Of a DNA stretch of 32,942 bases, positions 29,584 to 32,942 are shown one piece after another; within the stretch, counting starts at the first letter, position 1, and every line of letters begins with the position of its first letter. Made by a program: the position numbers and the translations under genes. The notes beneath the pieces were generated by a model. The model was not told where the DNA came from. It made no database searches and saw only the letters and a list, made by a program, of their open reading frames with translations. The stretch covers positions 4,371,197 through 4,404,138 of the forward strand of contig CP070673.1 of the NCBI GenBank assembly GCA_020351915.1, read 5' to 3'. The DNA is from Deltaproteobacteria bacterium. GTDB taxonomy: Bacteria; Desulfobacterota; DSM-4660; Desulfatiglandales; B25-G16.

Positions 29584-29810
29584 GTTACACCTCCTCATTT
29601 AAAAGATTCGCCTTTAGAACGCCTTTGCCTTTACATTACTCCTGCCACAGGAATTTATCAACAAAGATTTCTACCCTTCCCCTGCTACCCTCATTCAAAA
29701 GGCCTTTGGTACAATATATCTTGCAAGGAAAAAATCCTTCAAAAGGGTGTTATTGTTATAGAGAATGATTACTATTGAAAAACTCACAAAAAGTGTTTTG
29801 TGAACGAGAT

Positions 29811-29930
29811 TGAGCGTTTTGGGACAGAAGCGCTCGAGATGTTCAGCGCTGAGAAATGCTAACTGTTTGAGGGCATTATACCGAGTTTTAGCATTTTAGC
29901 TGAATATCTTAAGTGCGCCCAAAATGCTCA
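29811..29930 (+). repeat. 120-nt nested palindrome containing copy A of the CTGTTTGA/GAGTT motif
   Basis: The outer arms TGAGCGTTTTGGG (29811-29823) and CCCAAAATGCTCA (29918-29930) pair at 12 of 13 positions, and AGATGTTCAGC is matched by GCTGAATATCT further in. At the core (29854-29896) AAATGCTAA and TTAGCATTT form a perfect 9-bp stem around CTGTTTGA (29863-29870), a small inner hairpin, and GAGTT (29883-29887). The same internal loop recurs at 32884-32927 with an unrelated stem. It lies about 330 bp upstream of ahbC. The 29584-30017 stretch holds no gene. Confidence 0.6.
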
Positions 29931-30017
29931 CGGATAGAGCAAAATCGATTTTTTGCGAATGCATTGCTATTAAACCCACAAACTTCTTGACAGGCATAAA
30001 AAGGCAAGGGAATATAG

Positions 30018-30192
30018 CCCTACAACGACACTTTGTCATTCCTTCGCTTCGCTCGAGGACGGGTCTGAGGAGCGAAGCGACGAGGAATCTAGATTTTATT
30101 TCTAGTATCTGCCCACAAATCGTAGATTCTTCGCTCTCCCGCCTGGGCGGGATCCCTCAGAATGACTTCTCAACAAAAGTGTCGTTGTAGGG
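30018..30192. repeat. 175-bp element with perfect 17-bp terminal inverted repeats
   Basis: CCCTACAACGACACTTT (30018-30034) and its exact reverse complement (30176-30192) bound a non-coding 175-bp segment. Internally there are further inverted sequences of the GTCATTC...GAATGAC kind and GAGCGAAGCG/CGCTTCGCTC. No clear target-site duplication is visible and no transposase is encoded, so it looks like a MITE mobilised in trans. Its right edge is 38 bp from the ahbC start codon and contains TTGTAG, 16 bp before TATATA. Confidence 0.7.
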
Positions 30193-30230
30193 TTAAGATC
30201 TTACTTTATATAGACAGCTAGAGAGAAGAT

Positions 30231-31415
30231 ATGATCGGTATTTCAAAACTGTACTGTGGAACAATAGAGCCGTCTGATCCCATCAGATACGGCAGGCATT
30301 CAAAGGATCTACCTTCCCACCTGCTACAATTTTCCTTTGATAAGAAACCGGTAGTCGTTTGGAATATCACCAGGGCATGTAATCTAAACTGCATCCACTG
30401 CTATGCCAAGGCTGTTCACCGAACCAACAATGGAGAACTAACTACAGAACAAGGCATCAATCTCATTGATGATCTGGCCGCCTTTGGAGTTCCGGTTCTC
30501 CTCTTCTCCGGAGGCGAACCATTGCTGAGGCCTGATCTGGTTGAGCTGGGCCGGTATGCTGTGGATAAAGGCATGCGGGCAGTTATCTCTACAAACGGCA
30601 CCCTCATCAACAAACAAGTGGCCATAAAACTAAAAGATGCTGGCATCTCCTATGTTGGTATCAGCCTTGATGGATTGGAAATGGTGAATGACCGTTTTAG
30701 AAGGATGAAGGGTGCCTTTCGCCTGGCCTTTGATGGAATAAAGAACTGCCAGAATGGAGCACTCAAGGCAGGACTCCGCTTCACCATAAATAGGCTGAAT
30801 ATCGATCAGATACCGGGCATCTTTGATCTCGTGGAGGAAATGAACATTGAGCGGGTGTGCTTTTACCATCTCGTCTATTCTGGGAGGGGATCAGATCTGA
30901 TCGATCAGGGCCTCTCGCACGATGAGACCAGGCAGGTAGTAGACCTCATCATAGACAGGACTATGGACATGCACACCAGGGGATTAAAGAAGGAGGTGCT
31001 CACCGTAGACAATCATGCCGATGGCGCCTATCTGTACCTGAGGATGCTCAGGGAACATAATCCCCGCGCGCCTGAGGCCTTGGAGCTTCTCAAGATGAAC
31101 GGGGGAAACAGCTCAGGTGAAGGGATCGCCTGCATAAGCTGGGATGGTCAGGTGTACGCCGATCAATTCTGGCGCCAGCACTCCTTTGGCAATATTCTTT
31201 CAAGGCCCTTTAGTGAAACATGGTCTGACGTCTCCAATCCTTTGATGGCTCAACTCAAGGATAAAAAGAGGTATGTCACAGGAAGATGTGCCCGGTGCAG
31301 GTGGCTTGAAATATGCGGTGGGAACTTCCGCGCCAGGGCTGAGGCTGTAACCGCAGATATATGGGGGGAAGACCCTGCCTGTTATCTGACCGATGAAGAG
31401 ACAGGGGGAGCCTAA
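30231..31415 (+). CDS. ahbC: 12,18-didecarboxysiroheme deacetylase AhbC (radical SAM/SPASM)
   Basis: Radical SAM enzyme of the alternative heme pathway of sulfate reducers and methanogens; it removes the two acetate side chains of 12,18-didecarboxysiroheme to give Fe-coproporphyrin III. It is 394 residues. The N-terminus MIGISKLYCGTIEPSD is characteristic of AhbC. The radical SAM cluster is bound by C50, C54 and C57 (RACNLNCIHC). LLFSGGEPLLRPDL and VISTNGT follow. The C-terminal SPASM region has ACISWDGQVYADQFW, CARCRWLEICGG and DPACYL cysteines for the auxiliary cluster. ATG 30231 is preceded by GAGAAG. Its end overlaps or abuts the resB start, tying heme synthesis to cytochrome c assembly. 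The nearest alternatives are NirJ and AhbD, which differ at the N-terminus. Confidence 0.88.
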   Translation: MIGISKLYCGTIEPSDPIRYGRHSKDLPSHLLQFSFDKKPVVVWNITRACNLNCIHCYAKAVHRTNNGELTTEQGINLIDDLAAFGVPVLLFSGGEPLLRPDLVELGRYAVDKGMRAVISTNGTLINKQVAIKLKDAGISYVGISLDGLEMVNDRFRRMKGAFRLAFDGIKNCQNGALKAGLRFTINRLNIDQIPGIFDLVEEMNIERVCFYHLVYSGRGSDLIDQGLSHDETRQVVDLIIDRTMDMHTRGLKKEVLTVDNHADGAYLYLRMLREHNPRAPEALELLKMNGGNSSGEGIACISWDGQVYADQFWRQHSFGNILSRPFSETWSDVSNPLMAQLKDKKRYVTGRCARCRWLEICGGNFRARAEAVTADIWGEDPACYLTDEETGGA

Positions 31416-32823
31416 GGTTTTCTTGCACATGAAAAAAACAATCCTATCCTTTCTTTCTTCGCTGAAACTGACAATCGTCCTCCTCATTGTCATCGCTGCT
31501 CTGTCTATTCTGGGCACTGTTATTCCTCAACAGTATGGAGCGGGCGAGTCGTTTACTCGTATGAGTCCCGGGTTGGTTAAAACCTTTCGCTCCCTTCAGC
31601 TCTTAGATCTGTACCACTCTGTCTGGTTCATTATCCTGATGTGCCTCCTGTCTCTGAATCTGATAGTCTGTTCTCTAAAGAGATTTCCCACTTCATGGAA
31701 ACTCTTCACGGCAACACCTTCCCTTAATAGGACTAAGCCCTTTGAAGATCTCTCATCTGACAACATCGTGATGATTGAAGGGGAACGGAGCGGAATTACC
31801 AGCAGGGTGGAACGTCTTCTCATGAAAAGATACAAACGGTTCAGAAGGAAGGACACAGATACGGCTACCACCTTTTATGGAGAGAAAGAGGCTTACTCCC
31901 ATTTCGGGGTGTATATTGTTCACGCCAGCATCCTAATAATCATTGCAGGCGCAATCATAGGCTCCCTGTGGGGCTTTGAGGGCTTCGTAAATCTTGCTGA
32001 AGGGGAATTCACTGATACGGTTTATGTGGGACGGCAAAAGAGTCTAAAAAAGTTAGATTATACTGTTCGGTGTGATAAGTTTTCTATCGCTTACTACGAT
32101 AACGGAATGCCCAAAGAATATCGGTCAGATCTTAGCTTTCTTGAAAATAATGCCGTTATTTTTCAAGGACCCCTCCTTGTCAACCATCCCGTAACCGTAA
32201 AGCGTATCAAGTTCTATCAGGCAAGCTATGGATCTATTCCTGGTGGCCGAGTACACATAACCATTACCAGAGGAAACGACAAAGGAACAACCTTAACACT
32301 CAACCTGAAGGATTCATTCTATCTGAAAGAAAACGGAGCAAAGGTGACGGTACAAAGGATAGAAGAGAATTTTATGTCCATGGGGCCGGCTGTGCTTTTG
32401 AGTATTCACTCTTCCGAAGCGAACATGCAGCTCTGGGTGTTTAAAGATATTGAAAAAATGAAGCGAGCTATCCCCAACCTCTTACAAAAGGTTCCAAAAT
32501 TTAATCCTGGTCTTTTCAAACCATACTATTTTGAACTTAACAGTATCGCACAGACTTATTATACTGGTCTCCAAGTGAGCTATGATCCAGGTATCTCTAC
32601 AGTAGCAATTGGCGCCTTTTTTATTGTAATCGGCTTTTTCCTCGCCTTCTTTTCATCTCATAAAAGGCTATGGGTGCGTGTGGATGAGCAGGAGGGGAAA
32701 ACCAGAATAGTGATAAGTGCCCAGAGCAATAAAGATCCTGTTGGTCTGGAGCGGGAAAGGGAGTATCTTCTCAGGCACTTTAAGAAGGGCTCAGAGCTTG
32801 ACAGGCTGTTGCCCAAACCGTAA
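31393..32823 (+). CDS. resB: cytochrome c biogenesis protein ResB (Ccs1)
   Basis: Membrane component of the system II cytochrome c maturation machinery, which with ResC/CcsA exports heme and attaches it to apocytochromes outside the membrane. Up to 476 residues. Helices lie at about 26-44 (TIVLLIVIAALSILGTVIP), 75-94, 171-195 (HFGVYIVHASILIIIAGAII) and 401-421, with a large extracytoplasmic domain between helices three and four. The H-F-G-V-Y-x-x-H-A-S motif at the third helix is the ResB hallmark. The first ATG (31393) overlaps ahbC by 23 bp; the ATG at 31429, or the TTG at 31423 with AAGG five bases upstream, may be the real start. The partner ResC is expected just past the right edge. Confidence 0.93.
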   Translation: MKRQGEPKVFLHMKKTILSFLSSLKLTIVLLIVIAALSILGTVIPQQYGAGESFTRMSPGLVKTFRSLQLLDLYHSVWFIILMCLLSLNLIVCSLKRFPTSWKLFTATPSLNRTKPFEDLSSDNIVMIEGERSGITSRVERLLMKRYKRFRRKDTDTATTFYGEKEAYSHFGVYIVHASILIIIAGAIIGSLWGFEGFVNLAEGEFTDTVYVGRQKSLKKLDYTVRCDKFSIAYYDNGMPKEYRSDLSFLENNAVIFQGPLLVNHPVTVKRIKFYQASYGSIPGGRVHITITRGNDKGTTLTLNLKDSFYLKENGAKVTVQRIEENFMSMGPAVLLSIHSSEANMQLWVFKDIEKMKRAIPNLLQKVPKFNPGLFKPYYFELNSIAQTYYTGLQVSYDPGISTVAIGAFFIVIGFFLAFFSSHKRLWVRVDEQEGKTRIVISAQSNKDPVGLEREREYLLRHFKKGSELDRLLPKP

Positions 32824-32883
32824 TCCCCTTGATCGGTCATTAAAACGTTTTTTGTCAACAAATCTTGGCGAAGCGGAAGATAA

Positions 32884-32927
32884 GCGATGTCAACTGTTTG
32901 AGCCCTAAAGGCGAGTTTTGACATCGC
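32884..32927 (+). repeat. copy B of the CTGTTTGA/GAGTT stem-internal-loop motif
   Basis: GCGATGTCAA and TTGACATCGC form a perfect 10-bp outer stem. Inside, CTGTTTGA (32894-32901) and GAGTT (32913-32917) face each other, and GCC-CTAAA-GGC forms the inner hairpin. It begins 61 bp after the resB stop. The two conserved strands are the same as in the copy at 29854-29896, whereas both stems differ in sequence. Confidence 0.6.
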
Positions 32928-32942
32928 CTGGAGAGAGCCTTA

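Follow-up and report, generated by a model that had tools for sequence, protein, structure and literature searches.

Two short hairpins in the window (the whole stretch of DNA analysed, 32,942 nt) are copies of a structured module that occurs across bacterial phyla with covarying stems, and that has multiplied within elements with different ends, one of which was inserted here recently. The arms of this module, hereafter the tip, differ by family yet always pair, and its carriers have ends unrelated to one another. Together these features point to a so far undescribed folded-DNA signal with a putative partner. We give roughly even odds to the reading that the tip acts as folded DNA, forming a hairpin or cruciform head in the middle of several unrelated MITE-like elements, and is read by a putative widespread protein. 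Dispersed palindromes are usually lineage-specific; the tip spans many phyla on elements with unrelated ends. That its loops are conserved across phyla and its stems are not implies a common partner, apparently unnamed so far. Identifying this partner would help to explain the success of such elements, and would place a further natural signal of folded DNA alongside attC and REP.

Two hairpins and their parent elements

The features in the window are as follows.

29854..29896, forward strand: copy A tip (9-bp stem / CTGTTTGA / inner hairpin / GAGTT / stem)
32884..32927, forward strand: copy B tip (10-bp stem / CTGTTTGA / GCC CTAAA GGC / GAGTT / stem)
29775..29964, forward strand: family A element, a MITE-like palindrome of ~190 bp, a repeated unit in congeners
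32802..32942, forward strand: family B element, truncated by the window end after 141 of its ~196 bp, terminal repeat CAGGCTGTTGCC
32798..32801, no strand: TTGA, the 4-bp target duplication on the left side of element B (its right counterpart falls in a masked stretch past the window end)

Both copies lie where the first-pass annotation had placed them, and on the same strand. Their CTGTTTGA and GAGTT strands are the same, while the outer and inner stems differ yet pair, and both copies fold. The two-part pattern matches twice in the window (0.05 matches expected), and none of 100 shuffled windows held two matches. Folding is weak for copy A alone (z = -1.1) compared with copy B alone (z = -3.3), and the larger palindrome enclosing copy A reaches -53.1 kcal/mol (z = -5.1). 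The annotation was right that copy A sits within a palindrome, but not about its size of 120 nt, as the element measures ~190 bp (29775-29964). Copy B is likewise the tip of a large palindrome, of ~196 bp from about 32802, that extends beyond the window end.

Selection on a folded single strand, and not recent duplication, had been proposed from these two copies, with a search for further copies as the check. Many were found, in the genome itself and beyond, with covarying stems, and the structural inference stands. The suggestion that the copies are dispersed mobile repeats was likewise borne out, each being a member of a family amplified in the genome. The annotation also had them flanking ahbC-resB. 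The gene names hold (TIGR04546 match above cut-off for ahbC; PF05140 match for ResB), but the flanking is incidental: three congeners (G001, G002 and G004) have an empty site where copy B stands, and copy A, common to the window and G003, is absent from G004.

Copy B is a recent insertion, because homology to the three congeners with empty sites stops at window positions 32793-32796 and then continues directly into the next gene. The insertion of element B took over the end of resB (32798-32823), whose stop (32821-32823) and last residues, LDRLLPKP, are supplied by the insertion; resB of relatives ends at about the same point, overlapping the start of the next gene.

Families A and B both have a MITE-like appearance: each has terminal inverted repeats, unrelated to those of the other, and a target duplication, and the copy B site is empty in relatives. 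Family A, with at least eight matches in its own genome and many copies in congeners, has imperfect terminal inverted repeats with degenerate ends of the type TGAYRMACTCGYAAAAAGT and a ~4-bp target duplication (flanks of L081-L085), and its ends and stems are unrelated to those of family B. Family B has at least 40 full-length matches in its own genome (136 candidates at first look; 38 copies aligned), with CAGGCTGTTGCC...GGCAACAGCCTG as terminal inverted repeats and a 4-bp target duplication at exactly that offset (70% identity over 34 copies). In the same genome, CTGTTTGA-N4-34-GAGTT returned 46 matches, and the reversed control pattern 4. G002 and G003 also carry a family B insertion near the site matching window 29604-29611, showing that the family is active within the genus.

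Between copy A and ahbC there is a third palindromic element, at 30013-30196 and with ends CCCTACAACGACAC / GTGTCGTTGTAGGG; it has many congener copies and is without the CTGTYTGAG tip.

Architecture, covariation and spread of the tip

The consensus tip comprises a lower stem, an asymmetric loop (GTTAA, GCCC or GATCA type on the 5' side; A or nothing on the 3' side), a 9-10 bp stem, the strands CTGTYTGA (5') and GAGTT (3'), and a small inner hairpin. The stem is 9 or 10 bp long in 46 of 65 distinct instances, and its sequence is not shared. Among 37 diverse tips, 97.7% of cells were paired vs 55.7% after shuffling, values inflated in absolute terms by the choice of tips that pair (six or more contiguous pairs, or nine of ten) and read with the closing G-C/C-G pairs that the pattern used on genome contigs itself imposed. 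The same set showed 194 double changes vs 52 in shuffles and a covariation score of 1.090 vs 0.213 +/- 0.023, while slid controls, with the partner moved one column, were 32-47% paired. Outer stems of at least five contiguous pairs were present in 84/136 cellular matches, and of at least six in 81/136 unselected cellular matches. The same scan of viral contigs returned sequence matches with a stem in 1/80; almost all being stemless, these behave as chance matches should. Phages searched with the Variovorax composite showed no similarity to it. By eye, the GTTAA strand of Haemophilus copies lies on the opposite side of the stem with its 5'-3' sense kept, which fits a folded strand and not a duplex site.

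Within the phylum, CTGTYTGAG-N4-12-CGAGTT was found in 82/395 genomes, with most copies in G348 (216), 131 in G382 and 43 in G196; the reversed control pattern returned none in these three. Among the matches listed, the tip occurs in named genomes of about eight or more bacterial phyla. Paired-stem instances among these matches come from Desulfobacterota, Beta- and Gammaproteobacteria (Variovorax, Zoogloea and Rodentibacter) and Acidithiobacillus; from Bacteroidota (Flavobacterium, Flammeovirga, Parabacteroides and Elizabethkingia); from Bacillota (Clostridium, Anaerococcus and Lachnospiraceae); and from Leptotrichia and MAGs of Nitrospirales, Parcubacteria and Gastranaerophilales.

At least four carriers with unrelated ends bear the tip, namely families A and B and one element each in G196 and G348. 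The G196 carrier is ~230 bp long, with ends CTCAACTTTCGACTTTCAT and 7-8-bp target duplications; short elements in this genome have the same ends without the hairpin, and 357 end-like matches were counted. The G348 carrier has ends GTAACTATTCAGCC and 8-bp target duplications. Many G348 copies (L488, L489 and L498-L507) are chimeric: a different hairpin repeat takes the place of the left arm as far as the CATTAGCATTGCAA stem, a pattern that suggests recombination at the tip's foot. With four unrelated end types among the carriers, movement seems due to ordinary transposases acting on the ends, the tip being a portable module.

In G196, four near-identical left halves of the element (L404-L407) lie within 1.4 kb (C1:889288-890651) and differ on the right-hand side of the tip stem; this cluster may be a local array or an assembly artefact. 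In Haemophilus, Variovorax and Parabacteroides, the hairpin often occurs in inverted pairs, joined to a second palindrome of the TTACTTTT...AAAAGTAA type that is itself a conserved module in these three genera. Examples of the hairpin with this palindrome are:

L465:1940-2420, Parabacteroides
L147:1560-2170, Variovorax
L191:2720-3190, Haemophilus

Folded form and competing explanations

The 730 stem cells of 73 distinct instances hold 667 Watson-Crick, 20 G.T and 14 A.C pairs, the G.T pairs mostly at the two stem ends; the G.U wobble expected of covarying RNA helices is thus nearly lacking from the tip stems in this set. Within family B, wobble shows a weak excess (38 G.T vs 28 A.C kinds of change). 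The inner loops of 119 distinct instances include 72 triloops, and 48 of these are GNA loops with C-G closing; the tetraloops are GNNA, mostly not GNRA. In N4 promoters, hairpin extrusion in supercoiled duplex DNA needs C-G closing and a loop with 5' G and 3' A (PMC4496689), and a stable mini-hairpin with two base pairs melts at 76.5 C (PMC10527192). The stability of the inner loop rests on this literature because ViennaRNA, with RNA or DNA parameters, predicts no structure for isolated 7-mers. We take the published two-base-pair hairpin to be d(GCGAAGC). The N4 virion RNA polymerase promoter hairpins and d(GCGAAGC) resemble the tip in their C-G closed three-base loop, G first and A last (PMC4496689, PMC10527192), but the likeness is limited to the inner 2-bp hairpin, the remaining architecture being different.

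The copies are intergenic, and no preferred orientation relative to neighbouring genes was detected in 138 of them. In G196, a closed genome with clear skew, the motif strand lies opposite the leading strand in 31/43 copies (one-sided p = 0.003), a moderate bias (72%) judged in this one genome, the skew of the window's own genome being irregular and copies in Anaerococcus, Bacteroides, Parabacteroides and Haemophilus too few to enter the test. Gene orientation in G196 is not biased. The scarcity of G.T, the C(GNA)G loops, the lack of a gene-orientation preference and the strand bias in G196 favour a folded-DNA signal over RNA, and we infer that DNA rather than RNA is the folded form. The rarity of G.T could also stem from template-switch correction of palindromes, which would be compatible with RNA.

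The folded-DNA reading would work as follows. The head presents one conserved asymmetric loop (CTGTYTGA / GAGTT), a stable mini-hairpin and a 9-10 bp free-sequence stem, with a second asymmetric loop, often GTTAA-like / A, beneath the stem. The tip may nucleate extrusion or fold-back of the palindrome, probably while replication leaves the strand single, and a putative widespread protein would bind the two loops one helical turn apart. Candidate benefits are improved transposition, a site for priming or processing, and shielding from nucleases. More tentatively, the tip could be a bacteria-wide recognition module that unrelated MITEs acquired independently or exchanged, that serves elements moved by different transposases and that a putative widespread host protein reads.

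Three other explanations were weighed against these. The first-pass annotation had offered a small structured RNA or 3'-end element, and we find it rather doubtful that the tip is a trans- or cis-acting RNA spreading within mobile repeats, its loops serving as internal-loop motifs for an RNA-binding protein. Conserved internal loops, fixed spacing and covarying helices are typical of structured RNAs, and both copies and their larger palindromes fold as RNA; however, the stem is almost without G.U, the inner loops are mostly triloops with few of GNRA type, and the 138 copies show no preference of gene orientation or position, so that a 3'-end or gene-linked element finds no support either. Neither the window nor 16 loci from other phyla gave a match to Rfam 15 covariance models at gathering score; at a permissive threshold (E <= 10) the matches were at chance level only. 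An explanation that we regard as unlikely holds the tip to be functionless now, an old MITE core inherited and recombined among MITE families, with template-switching keeping the palindromes perfect. It would account for the near-perfect Watson-Crick arms in all families and for the swapped left arms of the G348 chimeras, but arm correction would erase asymmetric loops, yet CTGTYTGA/GAGTT and the lower loop persist, and from Desulfobacterota to Bacteroidota and Bacillota the loops were kept while every stem letter changed.

Distinctly unlikely, in our view, is a REP-like site whose single-strand transposase (HUH/Y1 or similar) would mobilise the hairpin itself, in the manner of REP-RAYT systems; REP-like sites of a dedicated nuclease or transposase had been suggested for the two copies. 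High-copy intergenic hairpins would fit such a site, as would the inverted pairs in Haemophilus, Variovorax and Parabacteroides and the Y1-transposase match in 14/14 motif-bearing genomes searched, four of which have exactly one. Against this, GTAG within 14 nt 5' of the stem is near-absent (4/65 distinct instances), no motif copies lie within ~1.5 kb of any of 30 Y1-transposase loci in the 14 motif-bearing genomes, and over 395 genomes Y1 genes are common whether or not the motif is present. Furthermore, the examined elements end in terminal inverted repeats, and their direct target duplications fit DDE transposases. A RAYT link was dropped, supported neither by Y1_Tnp copy number (395 genomes) nor by linkage (14 genomes).

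Relation to known systems

Like REP/REPtrons (TnpA_REP/RAYT), the tip forms many short intergenic palindromes per genome, with an imperfect hairpin and sometimes in inverted pairs. It differs from them in having no GTAG tag and no linkage to a Y1 transposase gene, and in placing a 9-10 bp free-sequence stem between conserved loops within larger inverted-repeat elements. The carriers resemble MITEs such as ERIC, Correia and Chunjie: they measure 150-240 bp, end in terminal inverted repeats with target duplications of 4 or 7-8 bp, lie between genes, are amplified within a genus and have empty sites in relatives. They differ in that a central hairpin head is common to MITEs with unrelated ends and across phyla. 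The parts of a MITE review that we consulted (PMC10969869) give no account of a hairpin head common to unrelated MITEs.

The tip copies are single or paired intergenic elements. Integron attC sites are read in their folded, single-stranded DNA form, through extrahelical features that are conserved while the rest of the sequence is free. On the folded-DNA reading the tip is alike in each of these respects, but it has no cassette arrays, has other conserved letters and carries its conserved loop beside the apex.

The annotation had recognised no named family. Rfam 15 gave no match, and no open-access paper was found to print the sequence. Searches of such papers for the motif and the adjacent TACTTTT hairpin as sequence strings returned nothing relevant, subscription literature being outside their scope, and a topic search at the level of titles and abstracts returned nothing describing the tip module. 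It is possible that the tip has already been described under another name, for example in subscription literature.

Finally, CTGTTTGAGCGAAGCGAGTTT translates to L-F-E-R-S-E-F, and a Haemophilus copy yields LFERSEF within a listed ORF. A recurring LFERSEF-like peptide string would thus be explained by spurious gene calls that draw the peptide from tip repeats.
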